Positions 3,487-25,660 of a stretch of 33,329 nt of DNA are shown here, in pieces. Positions within the stretch are counted from its first letter, which is position 1. Every line of letters starts with the position of its first letter. The stretch spans positions 1 to 33,329 of the forward strand of contig NZ_PMZU01000013.1 of NCBI RefSeq assembly GCF_003170075.1, in the 5' to 3' direction. A model generated the notes under the pieces. That model was not told the origin of the DNA. It worked only from the letters and a program-made list of their open reading frames with translations, and ran no database searches. The stretch is from Methanoregula sp. (GTDB lineage: Archaea > Halobacteriota > Methanomicrobia > Methanomicrobiales > Methanospirillaceae). The translations under genes were made by a program, and so were the position numbers.

Positions 3487-5093
3487 GGTATCACCAGCGT
3501 TCTTCCGAATACGTCCGCGAACAGGTCACTCTTTTTTATGGCACGGGCCTTCTCGGTCGCCACATCTCCTGTGAAAGTAATCACGCACTGCACTTCAGTC
3601 CCGCCGATCGTGCAGTGCAGATCGGTCACGCTTGCCGCGTGGAGGTAATCGAGGCCGTCGGCAACCCGGAGGAGCGCAGCAAGGATGCGGACGCGTTTCT
3701 GATCGGCTGGTGAAAGGAGGAGCCAGAAACCTGTCGGCCGGGACCGTGTGCTCCCGCCATGGAGGCCTGTAACGAGGGCGATGATACCCTGTTCGCGGAC
3801 CGGTACCGTCAGGTCGCCGCAGGAAAGGATCAATTCGGCGCTTTTTTTCTGGTGCCCAACCTGCCCCATCAACCAGCCGATATCGTGGATGGTTGCAGCA
3901 TAATCAAGCAGCGCACGGTCACGGGAGCCAAGCCCGTGAAGGGGAGCAAGTTCATCAAAGAGCCGAAGGGAAAGTGCCGCGACCGTGCGGCCATGGGCAG
4001 CGTGTTCGGGCGCCATAGTGGCAAGTTGAACGAACGCCGCACGCTCCTCTTTAACCGAATGAGAGGGTCGGTGGCAGACTGCCGTCCGCTGTCCTTCCAG
4101 CACCGTTAAGCGCAGCTCGTCCCAGAACCCGGTACGGACAAGGGTGTCCCAGTACCGTACAAACTGCCGGTAGAGCCGGGCCCGGCACCGCTCCCGGTTG
4201 ACCAGCAGTCTTCGGAGGGGGGCCACCGCAGATACCGCGGCGCCGGGCAGGTCCCCCCTAGGGTACCGGTGGGCACGCTGTTTTATGATAGCAAGGGTCA
4301 TCTGCTCGATCCAGACATCGCAATCATGGATGTCGCCGAGGAGATCCTGGAGCCTCTTTATCCGTGCGATTGGTTTCCCGAGCTCACGCCGGTAGAGCGG
4401 GGCATAGGTTTCCAGCGTGTACCGGAGTTTCTTTGCCGCGATCCTCATGGCATGGTGCTCGAACACCGCGTCCGGGTTGTGCACAAAGGGTTCAAACCGG
4501 TCCAGCCCGGCCAGCCGTCTGCCAATCCGGTCGGCGGCGACCGGGAGCACCCCGAAATACCGCGCCCGTCTCCTTCCCCGTCCTGCTGCGGCAGGCACGG
4601 GGCATGCCGCCTGTATCCCGGAGAGCACCAGTGTTTCCTCCAGCTCGTCAAGTGCCGAGATCACCTGCTGCTGGAGGAGCCCGCGTCGTTTCTGGAGCCG
4701 CGAAAGAAGTGCGGCAATGGGATCGCCGGCGTAGGATTGTGCAGGGGCCGGTTCGGTCATACCTGCCGGCACCGGGACTGCTTGAGCCTTCAGGTACTTT
4801 TTCAAAAATGCAATCTGGACATCCGTATCCCGGGCTTCCCCAAGGGCGCGGGTAACAGATTTTATCTCATGCATCCAGTGGCGGAAATCCTTCTCCGGGA
4901 AGCAGGAGGAGAAGAGCGGGAGCGCCGCACGGAGCCGGCGGGAGGCCACCCGCATGCGGTGGATATGCTCAATATCGTCATCATCCCGTACACCGGTGAT
5001 CTCTTTTGAGGTGACATCAATGAGAGGCAGCAGCCGGCCCGCCCCGAAAACGCAGGGGCCTGGCACGGGCACCCGCGGTTCAGGTGCCGGCAT
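3483..5093 (-). CDS. CHAD domain protein fused to a Ppx-like HD domain
   Basis: CHAD domains are helical, histidine-rich modules that bind polyphosphate. The signature EHIHRMRVASRRLR lies near the N-terminus, and a second half-repeat carries HAMRIAAKKLRYTLETY and RIKRLQDLLGDIHDCDVW. The last ~140 residues are a separate HD-type domain (YAATIHDIGWLM ... RILAALLRVADGLDYLH) that resembles the C-terminal domain of the adjacent Ppx (LEYAAFLHDIGSF ... MFVRLGESLDRSH). The frame is open to 5150, but that would overlap ppk1 by 71 bases. ATG at 5093 leaves a 14-base overlap and the CHAD domain intact, so it is preferred. Catalysis by the HD part is not proven. A polyphosphate-responsive or polyphosphate-tethering role is inferred from the operon. 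Confidence 0.85.
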   Translation of the reverse strand: MPAPEPRVPVPGPCVFGAGRLLPLIDVTSKEITGVRDDDDIEHIHRMRVASRRLRAALPLFSSCFPEKDFRHWMHEIKSVTRALGEARDTDVQIAFLKKYLKAQAVPVPAGMTEPAPAQSYAGDPIAALLSRLQKRRGLLQQQVISALDELEETLVLSGIQAACPVPAAAGRGRRRARYFGVLPVAADRIGRRLAGLDRFEPFVHNPDAVFEHHAMRIAAKKLRYTLETYAPLYRRELGKPIARIKRLQDLLGDIHDCDVWIEQMTLAIIKQRAHRYPRGDLPGAAVSAVAPLRRLLVNRERCRARLYRQFVRYWDTLVRTGFWDELRLTVLEGQRTAVCHRPSHSVKEERAAFVQLATMAPEHAAHGRTVAALSLRLFDELAPLHGLGSRDRALLDYAATIHDIGWLMGQVGHQKKSAELILSCGDLTVPVREQGIIALVTGLHGGSTRSRPTGFWLLLSPADQKRVRILAALLRVADGLDYLHAASVTDLHCTIGGTEVQCVITFTGDVATEKARAIKKSDLFADVFGRTLVIP

Positions 5094-7182
5094 TGTACCA
5101 TATCCCGGGGTGTTCGAGGAACCATAACTGCGAATCGACCGGCGCCTCACCCGATTCAGGATGTTTCCGCATGTATGTCCCGTCCCCTGACATCAGCCGC
5201 AGCTGCTGGTTGTCCTTAAGTTCGGTATCGAGAATGATTGAGAGAAGCGCCTTTTTAATTGCGGGATCGGTGACCGGGAAGAGCACCTCCACCCGCCGGT
5301 CAAGGTTCCGGGGCATGAGATCGGCGCTCCCGAGAAAGACTTCGTCATCGCCACCGTTTCTGAAATAATAAATCCTCGCATGTTCAAGGAACCGGCCGAC
5401 GATCGCACTGACCGTGATCTTCTCGCTTGTACCGGGAAGGCCCGGCCTGAGGCAGCAGATACCCCGGATCTGGAGGTCGATTGTTACCCCGGCCTGGGAA
5501 GCGCGGTACAAGGAGTTAATGCACTCCTGATCCACAAGCGCGTTCATCTTGAAAATGAGGTGCCCACCGCCGTGCTCTCTGTGGTTTTCGATCTCCCGGT
5601 CGATCCGCGTGATAATGGCGGTGCGGAGGGTGACCGGCGCCACGGCAAGCTTCAGATACTTGTCAATACGGGCATAGCCGGTCAGGAAGTTGAAGAGGTT
5701 AGCTACGTCATATCCGATATCCCGGTCGCAGGTAAACATCCCGAAATCCGTGTAGACCCGGCTTGTCGTTGCATTGTAATTGCCGGTACCGAGGTGCATG
5801 TATCGCCTGATCCCATCCTTCTCGCGCCGGACAACCATGCAGAGCTTCGCGTGCACCTTGAGGCCGACGACCCCGTAGACCACGTGGACACCGGCCCGCT
5901 CGAGCGCACGGGCCCATCCGATATTGTTTTCCTCGTCGAACCGGGCCTTGAGTTCGATCAACGCGGCCACCGCCTTCCCATTCTCGCGGGCCTCCAAAAG
6001 TGCCTGGACAATCGGTGATTTCGAACCCACCCGGTACAGGGTGATCTTGATCGCAAGGACGTCCGGGTCGTGCGCCGCCTGCCGGATAAAATTGATCACC
6101 GGGGAGAAACTGTCATAAGGGTGGAAGAGGAGGATATCCTTTTTCCTGATGGCGGAAAAAATATCTTTTTCCTCGGCAAGTTCCGGCGGGATCGATGGCT
6201 GGAACGGGGGATCTTTCAAGTCGGGCCGGTCAAGCGAGAGAAGTTCCATGAGGTCGGCCATGCCCACCGGGTGGCCGATCCGGTACAGCATGTGGGACCC
6301 GATGCCCAGTTTCTTTTCAAGCATGTGGCAGGTACTTTCGTGCATTGATGAGTCGACCTCGATCCTGACCGGGGTGCCCCGGGCACGCTGTTCCATGATC
6401 TCCTCGACCGTGGTCAGGAGATCGGACGCCTCATCAACTTCGATGTCGAGGTCAGCATCACGTGTGATACGGAAGGGGGACGCCCCCACCACTTCGAGGC
6501 CGGGGAAGAGCAGGTCAAGGTGCGCTGCCACGAGGTCTTCGAGGTACACCAGGTGCACCTGTTTATTGTCACGGTGGCCGCCAGCGCCGGTTTCCGGGAC
6601 CCTGACAAGCCGGGGAAAAAGGCCGGTTGGTACTTTGATCCGTGCGAAGAGTTCCTTTCCTTTCGGGTCGCGGATGATGATGGCGAGGTTGAGAGAAAGG
6701 TTGGAGATGAAGGGAAACGGGTGAGCGGAATCGAAGGCGAGTGGGGTGAGCACCGGGAATACTTCCTCGATAAAGAACGTGCGGAGCGCTTTTTTCTGCT
6801 CCGCGTCAAGCTCCTTGTAGAGATGGATAAAGATCCCGGCGCTGTAAAGCCGGGGAAGGATCTCCTTTGTCCAGCAGTCGTACTGAAGGGCAAGTTCGGG
6901 GAGAAGTGCTTTTTCTATCGCGACGAGCTGCTCTGATGCCGTCATCCCGTCGGGGGGAGCCTTGAGTACACCCTGTGCAGCCTGCCGCTGAAGACCCGAG
7001 ACGCGGATCATGAAGAATTCATCAAGGTTGTTTGCAAAGATGGAAAGGAACTTCACCCGTTCCAGGAGCGGGTGCCCCTCGTCCTGTGCTTCCTCCAGCA
7101 CATGGTGGTTGAAACGGATCCAGCTCAGCTCGCGGTTGATATAGAGCGACGGGGAATCCAGTGGGGGAGCGGAATCGGTCAT
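5080..7182 (-). CDS. ppk1: polyphosphate kinase 1
   Basis: Ppk1 reversibly transfers the gamma phosphate of ATP onto polyphosphate through a phosphohistidine. The product has the N-terminal block LYINRELSWIRFNHHVLEEA, the ANNLDEFFMIRVSGL block, the ITLYRVGSKSPIVQALLEA block and the phosphorylated-His motif GLKVHAKLCMV (His about residue 444 from this start). HLGTGNYN follows it. Length (700 residues) is normal. The frame is open to an ATG at 7215. The ATG at 7182 is preferred because GGTGATC, complementary to the 16S rRNA end, lies just before it and family similarity begins shortly after. First gene of the ppk1/CHAD-HD/ppx operon. Confidence 0.95.
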   Translation of the reverse strand: MTDSAPPLDSPSLYINRELSWIRFNHHVLEEAQDEGHPLLERVKFLSIFANNLDEFFMIRVSGLQRQAAQGVLKAPPDGMTASEQLVAIEKALLPELALQYDCWTKEILPRLYSAGIFIHLYKELDAEQKKALRTFFIEEVFPVLTPLAFDSAHPFPFISNLSLNLAIIIRDPKGKELFARIKVPTGLFPRLVRVPETGAGGHRDNKQVHLVYLEDLVAAHLDLLFPGLEVVGASPFRITRDADLDIEVDEASDLLTTVEEIMEQRARGTPVRIEVDSSMHESTCHMLEKKLGIGSHMLYRIGHPVGMADLMELLSLDRPDLKDPPFQPSIPPELAEEKDIFSAIRKKDILLFHPYDSFSPVINFIRQAAHDPDVLAIKITLYRVGSKSPIVQALLEARENGKAVAALIELKARFDEENNIGWARALERAGVHVVYGVVGLKVHAKLCMVVRREKDGIRRYMHLGTGNYNATTSRVYTDFGMFTCDRDIGYDVANLFNFLTGYARIDKYLKLAVAPVTLRTAIITRIDREIENHREHGGGHLIFKMNALVDQECINSLYRASQAGVTIDLQIRGICCLRPGLPGTSEKITVSAIVGRFLEHARIYYFRNGGDDEVFLGSADLMPRNLDRRVEVLFPVTDPAIKKALLSIILDTELKDNQQLRLMSGDGTYMRKHPESGEAPVDSQLWFLEHPGIWYNAGT

Positions 7183-19521: not shown

Positions 19522-20811
19522 CTATTCGAGAAAGTGATGCGTCAGGTTCATGACATCCCGGTACTTGATGACCCCGACAAGGCGATCATCGTCATCCGTG
19601 ACCGGCAGGGCCCGGAAATTGTACCGTTCGAATTCCGCCGATGCCTCTTTCAGGGTACTATCAGCATTTAACGCGATCACATTCTCGGTCATGATCGCGG
19701 AGAGCGGCGCCTTGTCATCCGCACTCAATAGTTCCTTTAAATCGATTACACCCAGCAGCCGGTTCTCGCCATCTACCACGTAGACATACATAACGACATC
19801 TTTTCCCCGTGCATGCCGGGGATAATCGTTCTGTACATACTCGACAAGGGTATCCGGGGAGAACGTGAGGATCTTCTGGGTTGTATAATGGATCACCTTC
19901 TCCTCCTGTTTTTCCATGATCGCCCGCAGGTTCCTCGCAGTATCAGGATTGAGCGCCGCAAGAATATCCTCGGCATCTGCATGCGGGATGACTGATAGGA
20001 CGTCGGCTGCCTGTCCCGGGGTCATATCGTTGATGAGCAGGACGACCTTATCCGTTGAGAGCGAAGAGATGATATCGCGCTGCACCTGGGGTTCGATCTC
20101 TTCGAGCGTATCACTCGCATGCTCGTGTTCGAGTGTGGAGAAGAGCATGACCCGCTGATCGTGATCCATCTCTTCGAGAATATCCGCAAGATCGACAGGA
20201 TGGATCTCAGAAAGTTTGTCTTTTAAGACATTCAGCTTGATATTACCCTTGAATCTCCCGATATTTGTCGGGAGCGGCTGAATGTATTTCCATGAGATCA
20301 TCTGCTCTGCTTCGGAGTCGGCGTTAGTGTAGAGAATCTTTGCAAGTATTCCGAGGCCCAGCCTCCGGAGACGGGCTGCCTTTCCGGTATCAACATCGGT
20401 CACGTACAGTTTCTTGTTTCGGAGGACAAGCCGGATATCGTAGACTATCTCGACCTCATTCTCTTCAAGGTCGATCACTTTCTTGTCAAGGATATAATCA
20501 CGGAGGAGAATGACATCATCGGTCGGTTCGATCTCATATGGGGTTAGATCTCCGATGGTGACCTCGATTCCCCGGCCTGTGAGGGTGTGGACATTCTCCC
20601 ACGGGATAAGGAGACTGGGGTTGCCAAAAGACCGGGAGACGTACAATGACCGCACCTCCGGGATCTTTGCGGTCTCCGCAATCACGAGGTCTGCAAGCGA
20701 TCCTATTTTCTTCCCTGAACGCAGGATAGGGACATTCAGGATATCGGAAAGAAGGATCCCGAGGTCCCCCGCCGTTACCGGTGTATTTGCAGTATCCGGC
20801 TGCGCCATCAT
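19522..20811 (-). CDS. soluble PRC-barrel, MgtE N-domain and CBS-pair protein
   Basis: A 429-residue protein without membrane segments. Order: two PRC-barrel-like segments (about residues 17-90 and 105-185); an MgtE_N superhelical domain (about 195-310, with IHPVDLADILEEMDHDQRVMLF and AADVLSVIPHADAEDILAAL); and a CBS pair (about 315-429, with YVYVVDGENRLLGVIDLKELL and RALPVTDDDDRLVGVIKYRDVM). In MgtE channels the N and CBS domains sense cytosolic Mg2+ and gate the pore. Here the pore is absent, but an Nramp-family transporter is encoded two genes upstream in the same operon. The start ATG overlaps the stop of the small membrane protein (ATGA). A metal-sensing regulator of that transporter is inferred. 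Confidence 0.9.
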   Translation of the reverse strand: MMAQPDTANTPVTAGDLGILLSDILNVPILRSGKKIGSLADLVIAETAKIPEVRSLYVSRSFGNPSLLIPWENVHTLTGRGIEVTIGDLTPYEIEPTDDVILLRDYILDKKVIDLEENEVEIVYDIRLVLRNKKLYVTDVDTGKAARLRRLGLGILAKILYTNADSEAEQMISWKYIQPLPTNIGRFKGNIKLNVLKDKLSEIHPVDLADILEEMDHDQRVMLFSTLEHEHASDTLEEIEPQVQRDIISSLSTDKVVLLINDMTPGQAADVLSVIPHADAEDILAALNPDTARNLRAIMEKQEEKVIHYTTQKILTFSPDTLVEYVQNDYPRHARGKDVVMYVYVVDGENRLLGVIDLKELLSADDKAPLSAIMTENVIALNADSTLKEASAEFERYNFRALPVTDDDDRLVGVIKYRDVMNLTHHFLE

Positions 20812-21023
20812 GCACCCCCATGGACGATCGTCCAGAATTTGTACCCGAGCAGGATCACGAGAAAGATGAGATACAGCCTGAGGAAGAGAAGGGCAAATTC
20901 TGCTCCTTTTGAAAGTTTAATCTTGGGCGTTGCATATCTCTTGTTGATCCTCGTAATCGTCCCGGTCAATTCATGGATGGTACTTCCGATCCGTTCCCCG
21001 AAGATGCTTTCAATTGCTACCAT
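20808..21023 (-). CDS. 71-residue one-pass membrane protein
   Basis: A small protein with a soluble N-terminal half (SIFGERIGSTIHELTGTITRINKRYATPK) and one C-terminal hydrophobic span (LLFLRLYLIFLVILLGYKFW). The frame is open to 21131, but that would overlap the transporter gene by 95 bases. ATG 21023 has GGGAGAG just upstream and is chosen, leaving 13 bases after the transporter stop. Its own stop overlaps the ATG of the PRC/MgtE_N/CBS gene. Family not recognised. Position between the transporter and its putative sensor suggests a linker or anchor role (inference). Confidence 0.75.
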   Translation of the reverse strand: MVAIESIFGERIGSTIHELTGTITRINKRYATPKIKLSKGAEFALLFLRLYLIFLVILLGYKFWTIVHGGA

Positions 21024-21036
21024 TTCTCTCCCTTCA

Positions 21037-22305
21037 TTATCCGAATAGGTTCGGGAACAGCGTACTGATACCGAACAATGTAGACACGATGATAATGCAC
21101 ACGACGATCGATATGTTTGCAATATTATCAAACAGGGTATTTTTATATTTCCCCATGATCTCCTCGCTGTTCAGGAGGATGATTAAAAATATCAGTGCCG
21201 CCGGCAGGAGGGTCACCGCAACGACCTGCACAAAGAGAGTGATCAATATCAGCGGAGCGTTTGGTATGAGAACCACCGCCCCGGCGGTGATCAGTCCTAT
21301 GAAGTAATACACATAGAACCAGAACGCCTCTTTTACCTTATAGTTCAGCGAGTGCGCCCACCCGAAGACCTCACCGAATGCCCATGAGTTTGTGAGCGCT
21401 ATGCAGATCGCGCCGAGGAAACCGGCATCGAAGAGACCGATGGCGACAAGCGTCCCTACCAGGGGGTGTACCCCCATGATAACCTGTGCGGCTTGTGCGG
21501 CACTCTCGATATTCATCCCGTAAAGGAGCGTGCCGGTCACGACAATCACGAAGATCGCAACGATTACGGTAAAGATCGCACCGATAAATGTGTCAAATTT
21601 GCCCCACGGAATATCCTTCTCCTTCATCTGCTTATCGACAACTGCGCTCTGCTGGAAGAAGATCATCCATGGTGCGATGGTCGTGCCGATATTTGCCATC
21701 AAGAAGAAGAACAGTTCCCCGTTAAATCCTCCCGGGAAATTGGGGATAATACCCGCCCTGAGAATATCGGAGACCGAGGGGTGGATGATAATTGCTGCCG
21801 GGATATAGATCAGGTTGACGAGGCAGAATGCCATGGTGATCTTCTCCCACGTCCAGTACCGTCCCGACATGACGATTCCGAGCATGACAAATATGACGAT
21901 GACAACGGTGATTATGGGGGAGACACCGAAAATGCTGAGCGCTGCGGTCATACCGACAAACTCGGTGACCATGGTCAGCCAGTTGACGATACTAAGATCA
22001 AGAAGGGAAAACCAGCCCCAGAATGAGCCGAATGCACTGAAGATCGCTTCTGCATGCCCGTGCTTGGTGACGGCACCCAGCCGGACCGTCATCTCCTGCA
22101 CGAAATACGCGACAGGGCCAAGAAGGACGAGGAACCAGATGAGGTTGTACCCGAATTTGGCACCGGTTGCTGCATAGGTGGTGATCCCGCCGGCATCGTT
22201 GTCTGCGATCATCACAATCAGGCCCGGACCAGCAAGCAGCAGGTAGATCTTGATAGTCTTGATAATCCGGCTGTAATTAAAATAGAATTTTGATAAAAAA
22301 TCCAT
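21037..22305 (-). CDS. Nramp-family divalent metal transporter, NRMT-like (probable Mg2+)
   Basis: About 422 residues with 11 or so membrane helices. The first-helix metal motif, DPGN in classical Nramp, reads ADNDAGGITTY (Asp/Asn at residues 35-37). The sixth-helix motif, usually with a metal-binding Met (GAxxMPHN), reads GTTIAPWMIFFQQ, where Ala replaces Met. Loss of that Met is, in Nramp-related magnesium transporters (NRMT), linked to transport of hydrated Mg2+ and Mn2+ rather than Fe2+. The downstream MgtE_N/CBS gene agrees with Mg2+. The frame is open to 22326; ATG 22305 follows GGAAGGGTACT and is preferred. A TATA box at 22448-22456 implies a leader of about 120 bases. Confidence 0.85.
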   Translation of the reverse strand: MDFLSKFYFNYSRIIKTIKIYLLLAGPGLIVMIADNDAGGITTYAATGAKFGYNLIWFLVLLGPVAYFVQEMTVRLGAVTKHGHAEAIFSAFGSFWGWFSLLDLSIVNWLTMVTEFVGMTAALSIFGVSPIITVVIVIFVMLGIVMSGRYWTWEKITMAFCLVNLIYIPAAIIIHPSVSDILRAGIIPNFPGGFNGELFFFLMANIGTTIAPWMIFFQQSAVVDKQMKEKDIPWGKFDTFIGAIFTVIVAIFVIVVTGTLLYGMNIESAAQAAQVIMGVHPLVGTLVAIGLFDAGFLGAICIALTNSWAFGEVFGWAHSLNYKVKEAFWFYVYYFIGLITAGAVVLIPNAPLILITLFVQVVAVTLLPAALIFLIILLNSEEIMGKYKNTLFDNIANISIVVCIIIVSTLFGISTLFPNLFG

Positions 22306-22350
22306 AGTACCCTTCCTTTCCTTCATTCAGTGCATTGTTTCTGTCATCCC

Positions 22351-24090: not shown

Positions 24091-24136
24091 TTATTTGCCA
24101 TAGGTAATGCAAGAGTATACCAGGGAACGTGGTACT

Positions 24137-25660
24137 ATGGGCTATCCCGATTTGAAAAGTGACGAGTCCATTATTCTGACAGCACAGCATGTCAAGGTGA
24201 AGTCTGTGCCGTTCGAACTGGTGCTCACCAACCGGCGCCTTATCATCATCGACAGCGAGAAGAACGTTGTCCCTACTCAGCAGATCCCGCTGATAACGAT
24301 ACGGAACGTAGCAACCGGGGAAAATGCAATCCGCGACCCGGTTATCACGCTGACCATCCTGACCGATACGGCGGATACAAGGGAGCTCGCGCTTACCTTT
24401 GCCCTGCAGACTGCCGGCGAGCGCAAACGCGAGGCGGGCGAATGGGTAAAAGCCCTCAAGAAACAGATTTCCGAAGCGATATCATACCCGGTTGAGATGG
24501 TGCCGGATGCGCAGATTTCCGGGGAAACCCATCAGGAACATACCGGTACTCCCGGTGTAAAAAAGGGGATCGAGATTTCCCGCCCCATAAAAAAGATTGT
24601 GGTGGACACCAGCCACCTGCCTCCGAAACCTGTCGAGACCACGTCGCTCCCCGAGGGATCTTTCTGCGGCCGGTGCGGGAACCGCATCCCCCAGGGATCG
24701 ACATTCTGCAACCGGTGTGGGACCAAGGTTGCCACCCCGGGAGAAGAGGCGGCAGCCTCCGCAACCCCCGGGCAGATTGCCACGGCCCCGGCGGTTGCAT
24801 CTGGATCGGGTGACCGTAAAGGCCGGCCCATTGAGCAGATCATCCACTCGATTGAACCCCTGATTGAGGATTCGGTGCCCCGCACGGAAGCTGCCCCGGC
24901 AGTCCCGGAACCGGAAAAGGCACTCTTTGTTCCTGCCGACGCACCCGCAGTACCGACAGCTGAAACAACTCCCGCCGCGGCAGAAACGACGGTACCGGGA
25001 GCGGAACCGGTCGCAGCACCGGCAGTACCGCCCATACCCCCGGTTCCTCCATTGCCACCGGTTCCTGCAGCACCCCGGAAAAAACGGACAATGATTCTTT
25101 CGGGGGTCATAATCCTTATCGTGATCATCGCTGTAGCAGCCGGCGGATTTATGGTCATGAATAACATGCAGAAAAATACCGAAATTATGCCGGTGACAAC
25201 AACAATACCCACCACGTCCACAACCATGCCGACACTGAGACCGACGATGGTCATGACAACAATCGTTACAACGGCAGTGCCGACAACCGCACAGGTGCTT
25301 GTCCCTTCGACAGGAGTCTGGGCTAAAGTCACATACGATAAGATCTACACCGGTCTTATAGGTACCCCGGGTTCACAGGTTGAAGTAACAGATACCGGCG
25401 ATCACTTCTATATTATTCCCACCAGTGGCGGTACAGTTGCCGTAGATCTCCAGAAGACAGATGGCTCTGGTGACGAGCTGAAAGTTATCATCTACAAGGA
25501 GGGTAATGCGGTAAAAACATTGTCAACGACCACCCCCAAGGGCAGAATTGACCTGCAGTTTGCCCTTACAACTCCGACACCTACCCCGACACCTCTCCCC
25601 ACACAATCCCTTATGTCCAATGTGACAACAACGGTAAACGCGGCGAACAGCACGGCGTGA
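24137..25660 (+). CDS. PH-like domain, zinc-ribbon, one-pass membrane protein
   Basis: About 507 residues in clear modules, numbered from this start. First comes a bacterial-PH/GRAM-like domain (about 1-120; SIILTAQHVKVKSVPFELVLTNRRLIII). Next is a zinc ribbon with four Cys at 177, 180, 191 and 194 (FCGRCG ... FCNRCG), then a long Ala/Pro/Glu-rich linker with PPVPPLPPVP. A membrane span (about 319-340, GVIILIVIIAVAAGGFMV) follows a basic RKKR stop. After it come a Thr-rich stalk, a beta-rich outer domain of about 90 residues (WAKVTYDKIYTGLIGTPGSQVEV) and a TPTPTPTP tail. Topology: PH and ribbon inside, beta domain outside. Function unknown; transmembrane sensing or surface anchoring is inferred. 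ATG 24107 is an alternative start. Confidence 0.75.
   Translation: MGYPDLKSDESIILTAQHVKVKSVPFELVLTNRRLIIIDSEKNVVPTQQIPLITIRNVATGENAIRDPVITLTILTDTADTRELALTFALQTAGERKREAGEWVKALKKQISEAISYPVEMVPDAQISGETHQEHTGTPGVKKGIEISRPIKKIVVDTSHLPPKPVETTSLPEGSFCGRCGNRIPQGSTFCNRCGTKVATPGEEAAASATPGQIATAPAVASGSGDRKGRPIEQIIHSIEPLIEDSVPRTEAAPAVPEPEKALFVPADAPAVPTAETTPAAAETTVPGAEPVAAPAVPPIPPVPPLPPVPAAPRKKRTMILSGVIILIVIIAVAAGGFMVMNNMQKNTEIMPVTTTIPTTSTTMPTLRPTMVMTTIVTTAVPTTAQVLVPSTGVWAKVTYDKIYTGLIGTPGSQVEVTDTGDHFYIIPTSGGTVAVDLQKTDGSGDELKVIIYKEGNAVKTLSTTTPKGRIDLQFALTTPTPTPTPLPTQSLMSNVTTTVNAANSTA

Follow-up and report, generated by a model that had tools for sequence, protein, structure and literature searches.

Among the Mg2+ importers of prokaryotes, NRMTs make up a fourth class, which has so far been studied as single polypeptides. 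The signature of the Mg2+-transporting NRMTs is a metal site composed of DxxG and TxxA (Ramanadane et al. 2022, PMC8806188). According to Shin et al. 2014 (PMC4072509), most NrmT genes adjoin a homologue of the cytoplasmic domain of the Mg2+ channel MgtE, and cytoplasmic feedback regulation is proposed for NrmT. The same study describes the NrmT of Acidobacterium capsulatum as mainly a Mn2+ transporter, with no improvement of rescue when the A. capsulatum MgtE fragment was co-expressed. In MgtE itself, six acidic residues are named for the regulatory Mg2+ sites: E59, D91, D95, D226, D247 and D250 (PMC5882242).

We analyzed an archaeal operon of this general type in the methanogen Methanoregula sp., within a window of 33,329 nucleotides (the window being the whole stretch of DNA studied). 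An earlier reading, made from the letters and open reading frames alone (the sequence-only reading), had described three minus-strand genes, set 13 bases apart at one junction and overlapping by ATGA at the other, and the sequence carries them as claimed. The features are as follows.

21037..22305, minus strand: NRMT transporter gene, 422 aa, about 11 helices (Pfam Nramp, EleNRMT match)
21024..21036, minus strand: gap of 13 bases between the transporter and small genes, with a GGGAG ribosome-binding-like stretch
20808..21023, minus strand: gene for the 71 aa small protein, which has one span and an N-terminus predicted to lie in the cytoplasm
20832..20900, minus strand: membrane helix of the small protein (LLFLRLYLIFLVILLGYKF), its most conserved part (alignment, hydropathy, helix in the read-through model)
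20808..20811, minus strand: ATGA overlap of the small-gene stop and the sensor start (sequence)
19522..20811, minus strand: sensor gene, 429 aa, soluble, with a predicted tandem PRC-barrel, an MgtE N domain and a CBS pair
20224..20763, minus strand: sensor residues 17-196, predicted to form a tandem PRC-barrel (fold match 8qzo)
19903..20205, minus strand: sensor residues 203-303, forming the MgtE N domain (Pfam MgtE_N, E 3.9e-21)
19525..19902, minus strand: sensor residues 304-429, forming the CBS pair (matched by Pfam CBS in two stretches, E 1.6e-17)

The ATGA overlap may couple translation of the small gene to that of the sensor. The transporter start was taken as 22305 because the family alignment begins there, despite an in-frame ATG upstream at 22326. 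Both the Pfam Nramp family and the MgtE_N domain occur only once in the source genome. Elsewhere in the window, positions 24107-25660 of the plus strand encode a protein of 517 aa that combines a zinc ribbon, a weakly PH-like start, a proline-rich region and a single membrane segment.

Judged by its sequence, the transporter is a member of the known NRMT family. It matches Pfam Nramp (E 1.3e-71), and its metal site consists of D37-A-G-G40 in helix 1 and T208-T-I-A211 in helix 6; these lie in the stretches ADNDAGGI and IGTTIAPW, matching the DNDAGG and GTTIAPW motifs given in the sequence-only reading. DAGG is kept in 83 of 88 related loci and TTIA in 81 of the 88. The best PDB match is EleNRMT (7qia, E 5.2e-61, with the next-best at 5.5e-15), and a structure model of the transporter superimposes on EleNRMT with Z 43-44. 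The protein combines DxxG in helix 1 with TxxA/T in helix 6, lacks the site Met, and has an NRMT as its closest solved relative. DAGG and TTIA stand where MntH has its DxxN and A/CxxM metal site, and the NCBIfam MntH model scored far under its cut-off on this protein. An Nramp protein without the site Met is an already-known kind, the NRMT.

The sensor had been described as a soluble protein comprising two PRC-barrels, an MgtE_N domain and a CBS pair, and each part was recovered, the MgtE_N and CBS domains by Pfam and the tandem PRC-barrel by a fold model. Pfam PRC gave a single match of 19.0 bits (cut-off 21.2). In an AlphaFold2 model built from 46 sequences (mean pLDDT 89), residues 17-196 align to CdpB1/CdpB2 (8qzo) with Z 15.0 over 137 residues at an rmsd of 2.7, and this likeness of the model supports a tandem PRC-barrel as the predicted fold of the N-terminal half. 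Residues 195-424 of the model match the cytosolic domain of MgtE with Z 21, at a large rmsd because the angle between the domains is different, and the CBS region gave fold matches of Z 14-18 to known CBS pairs. The chain ends after the CBS pair with no membrane pore, and the NCBIfam mgtE model was matched only to position 250 of 450. The proposal that a Mg-type Nramp relative shares one operon with a pore-less MgtE-type N/CBS protein is thus borne out.

The further suggestion that this protein senses Mg2+ by the MgtE scheme has only partial support. Among 46 sequences of the sensor family, three of the MgtE positions are kept, namely E59 (43 with D or E), D95 (42 with D) and D247 (44 with D); D91, D226 and D250 are not conserved. 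D247 belongs to the motif by which CBS domains usually bind nucleotides and may be kept for that purpose, so that it does not necessarily signify Mg2+ binding.

An NRMT gene lies next to an MgtE cytoplasmic-domain gene in the window and in 79 of 80 related loci. The idea that an MgtE-type sensor serves an Nramp-type transporter fits this operonic pairing, but it is not new, having been put forward for bacteria by Shin et al. 2014. The pairing of an NRMT with a detached MgtE-type sensor is therefore known; the archaeal setting and the PRC-barrels extend it.

We assessed conservation of the whole operon at two scales. Among 80 genomes of the same order (the source genome plus relatives), 18 carry the transporter, and the small and sensor genes adjoin it in those same 18; the co-occurrence of the three genes in this order is far beyond chance. 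In a scan of 84,980 species genomes, the best 80 loci were kept, with transporters 55-75% identical to that of the window. According to the record titles these loci span bacteria and archaea in more than 20 phylum-level groups, with the proviso that most of the records are metagenome bins and single phylum labels may be wrong. The small protein is present in 80 of these best 80 loci and the sensor in 79, the remaining contig stopping inside the small gene. The order transporter-small-sensor is found in 72 of them (one being the locus that is cut off) and the order transporter-sensor-small in 8, where the small protein is shorter (36-37 aa). As the sequence-only reading requires, related genomes keep the three genes together. 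The subgroup in which the 36-37 aa protein is placed after the sensor consists of loci L128, L131, L132 and L135-L139. In one relative (G015, contig C1, 66088-67579; loci L014 and L025) the operon shows apparent signs of decay: a TGA lies in frame within the transporter gene, and no usable start codon is present for the small gene.

The operon also occurs, with a transporter 70% identical to that of the window and a small gene that lacks annotation, on complete plasmids from Citrobacter freundii and Serratia marcescens. It evidently moves from species to species, and probably from one domain to the other; no copy of the plasmid operon was found in complete E. coli genomes. Both plasmids are of the conjugative IncHI type and bear the full operon (L155 12001-14713 in C. 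freundii pPSV; L156 6001-8713 in S. marcescens), next to an ArsR regulator and a P-type heavy-metal ATPase. The window's own small-protein sequence was too short and divergent to match anything when used as a query against plasmids.

A viral contig of 61.8 kb (L061; IMG/VR IMGVR_UViG_3300027896_002037) encodes an NRMT at 4968-6263, 56% identical, and a 36 aa small protein at 6275-6385. It also bears UvsX-like, NrdD-like and Cas4-like genes, and no sensor was found on it. The NRMT of this contig could be a Mg2+ importer carried by a phage. Searches of viral contigs for the sensor, and of GenBank phages for the transporter, returned nothing, and the small protein alone, again too short and divergent a query, found no match in viral contigs.

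The small protein itself has no match in Pfam or NCBIfam. Its membrane helix is preceded by a conserved, basic N-terminal stretch, and K and R are commoner before the helix than after it in 80 of 82 proteins, so its N-terminus is placed inside. Conservation across phyla rules out a chance hydrophobic open reading frame. The protein had been called apparently undescribed, and we agree insofar as a literature search found no description, subscription papers lying largely outside its scope; the passages of Shin et al. 2014 (PMC4072509) consulted make no mention of a small membrane protein. When a read-through of the transporter and small genes was folded with 26 paired rows, the small helix was modeled with pLDDT of about 80-86, and several alignments to 12-helix Nramps reach it. 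The five-residue linker in this fold forces the N-terminus of the small helix outside, contrary to the charge pattern.

More distant transporters, from plasmids and Actinomycetota genomes, fell into three sets, having a separate small gene, a C-terminal extension, or neither. The extensions, found in 19 transporters, are 86-122 residues long and contain exactly two hydrophobic helices each, the last of which shows the LRxYL...K pattern of the small protein. In HHalign, the small family aligned to full-length fused transporters only at columns 487-534 of 538 (P 8.7e-6), and the small-family profile had no match in unfused NRMTs. Searched against 9,787 six-frame open reading frames, the profile gave a top 18 made up entirely of transporter C-termini or frames directly after a transporter, with none inside a transporter core. 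Individual fused matches are weak (19 bits at best), and the weakest fused members each fall below significance; we regard the fused helix as a homologue of the small protein because of its position, the profile comparison and the uniform architecture, and not because of single scores. The topology of the fused forms is in keeping with this assignment. Since an 11-helix transporter ends outside and the small helix starts inside, fusion requires one extra helix, and exactly one is present in 19 of 19 fused forms, followed by a K/R-rich loop (5-15 K/R).

We then compared the distribution of the small protein with a tree of 133 transporters (quick IQ-TREE, SH-aLRT support), in which some branches are long and the deep root is unsure. 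The 69 transporters that have the small protein, whether separate or fused, all fall to one side of a single branch (support 92), and the fused transporters form one clade (support 99). The sole other row on the small-bearing side is L237, at which we noticed, post hoc, an 80 aa look-alike frame with a similar helix and an ATGA overlap with the transporter stop. On the opposite side lie EleNRMT and its nearest relatives, which have the sensor upstream and no small protein detected; profile and motif searches within 1.5-2.5 kb of EleNRMT-like loci found none. Loci with an upstream sensor and no detected small protein include L174, L185-L202, L216, L219-L221 and similar ones, with EleNRMT-like and other transporters. 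The small protein follows the transporter clade, not the sensor. We believe the single-span protein to be what is new in this system: it is found across the clade, as a separate chain in one lineage and joined to the transporter in another.

Taken together, it is likely that the operon specifies a three-part Mg2+ import system, made up of an NRMT, a transmembrane subunit and a cytosolic PRC/MgtE_N/CBS regulator. By analogy with EleNRMT, the transporter would import Mg2+ without proton coupling. The 71-residue protein would span the membrane as a subunit of the transporter, its N-terminus facing the cytoplasm; in another lineage it would have been incorporated into the transporter chain as a 13th helix. 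The cytosolic regulator may lower import when internal Mg2+ is high, or when a nucleotide signal received through the CBS pair is high. Physical binding and the direction of regulation are points that we infer. Weighing against such a system are the preference for Mn2+ of the A. capsulatum NrmT and the failure of its co-expressed MgtE fragment to give better rescue; the ability of EleNRMT to work without such a subunit; the three MgtE positions that the sensor does not conserve; the individually insignificant scores of the weakest fused members; and the outcome of a riboswitch search of the window, which found none, M-box included. A wider formulation, toward which we lean with somewhat less assurance, is that an entire clade of NRMTs consists of two-subunit transporters, their single-span subunit having escaped notice because its gene is short and often goes unannotated. 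The subunit would set stability, gating or the response to the sensor, and the sole solved NRMT comes from a clade without it.

A rival view, suggested by the sequence-only reading, is that the small protein serves as a tether or adaptor at the membrane through which the MgtE-like sensor is recruited to the transporter. Gene order is compatible with this role, the small gene lying between transporter and sensor, or starting that order, in 72 of 80 loci, and the cytoplasmic, conserved and basic stretch before the helix could contact the sensor. We nevertheless consider a tether unlikely. The small protein or fused helix occurs without an adjacent sensor gene on phage contig L061 and in plasmid loci L157, L158, L159, L161, L178 and L181 (judged at the locus only). 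EleNRMT-like transporters show the reverse, a neighboring sensor with no small protein detected, and conservation centers on the membrane helix, only the 36-37 aa form being kept by the phage and by 8 further loci. That the small protein persists without an adjacent sensor gene, on the phage and on several plasmids, argues for a subunit of the transporter rather than a tether for the sensor. Alternatively, the small protein might be a stability or quality-control factor, MgtR-like or AcrZ-like, that remains outside the working transporter. AcrZ, MgtS and MgtR are small single-span partners of transporters, and roles of this sort are known for small membrane proteins; however, a condition-specific regulator would not be expected to be fused permanently in one clade and paired almost universally in the other, and we hold this explanation to be quite improbable.

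The identity of the metal bears on the system as a whole. An M-box riboswitch lies about 300 bases upstream of the transporter in four sister operons (L071, L097, L183 and L184), all of which include the small gene, and another precedes the fused transporter of Alicyclobacillus (L158). Genes for MgtA-type Mg2+ pumps, scoring above the NCBIfam cut-off, adjoin L090 and L124. The M-box on the four sister operons and the neighboring pumps support Mg2+ as the ligand, and Mg2+ would by extension be both ligand and cargo in this archaeon. The system could instead carry Mn2+ or another divalent metal, with a sensor responsive to that metal. In Shin et al. 2014, the A. capsulatum NrmT rescued a Mn2+-uptake mutant and a Mg2+ mutant only weakly; EleNRMT also transports Mn2+ (PMC8806188), and some plasmid copies adjoin heavy-metal pumps and ArsR-type regulators. 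We find this reading improbable, as the site residues are those of Mg2+ transporters, and the M-boxes and the Mg2+ pumps beside two loci also speak against it.

If the small protein is indeed a clade-wide subunit of the transporter, it would change what must be expressed to assay or solve NRMTs, and it could, speculatively, explain the poor rescue given by some NRMTs expressed alone. The split and fused forms offer a natural pair for studying what a small membrane protein does to a transporter of the LeuT fold, and the complete operon makes the MgtE-type feedback proposal of 2014 testable.

In comparison with known systems, the operon most closely resembles the NrmT operons of Clostridium acetobutylicum and Acidobacterium capsulatum described by Shin et al. 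(PMC4072509), which likewise have an Nramp-related transporter and a free MgtE N/CBS-type neighbor, some of them under M-box control, and for which feedback regulation was proposed. It differs from these in its archaeal setting, its transporter-small-sensor order and the predicted tandem PRC-barrel on the sensor. With EleNRMT of Eggerthella lenta (7qia and others; PMC8806188), the closest solved relative, the transporter has in common the fold and the DxxG/TxxA site signature, whereas the EleNRMT clade is without the small protein and, in the nearest relatives found here, has the sensor gene upstream. The sensor shares an N domain and CBS pair with the cytosolic domain of the MgtE Mg2+ channel (2yvy, 2zy9; 26% identity, Z about 21), but the pore is absent from its chain, a predicted tandem PRC-barrel has been added, and D91, D226 and D250 are not conserved. 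Finally, the small protein is like AcrZ, MgtS and MgtR in architecture, being likewise one short membrane helix associated with a transporter; it is set apart by a pairing that is clade-wide and operonic, and is replaced by fusion in one lineage.
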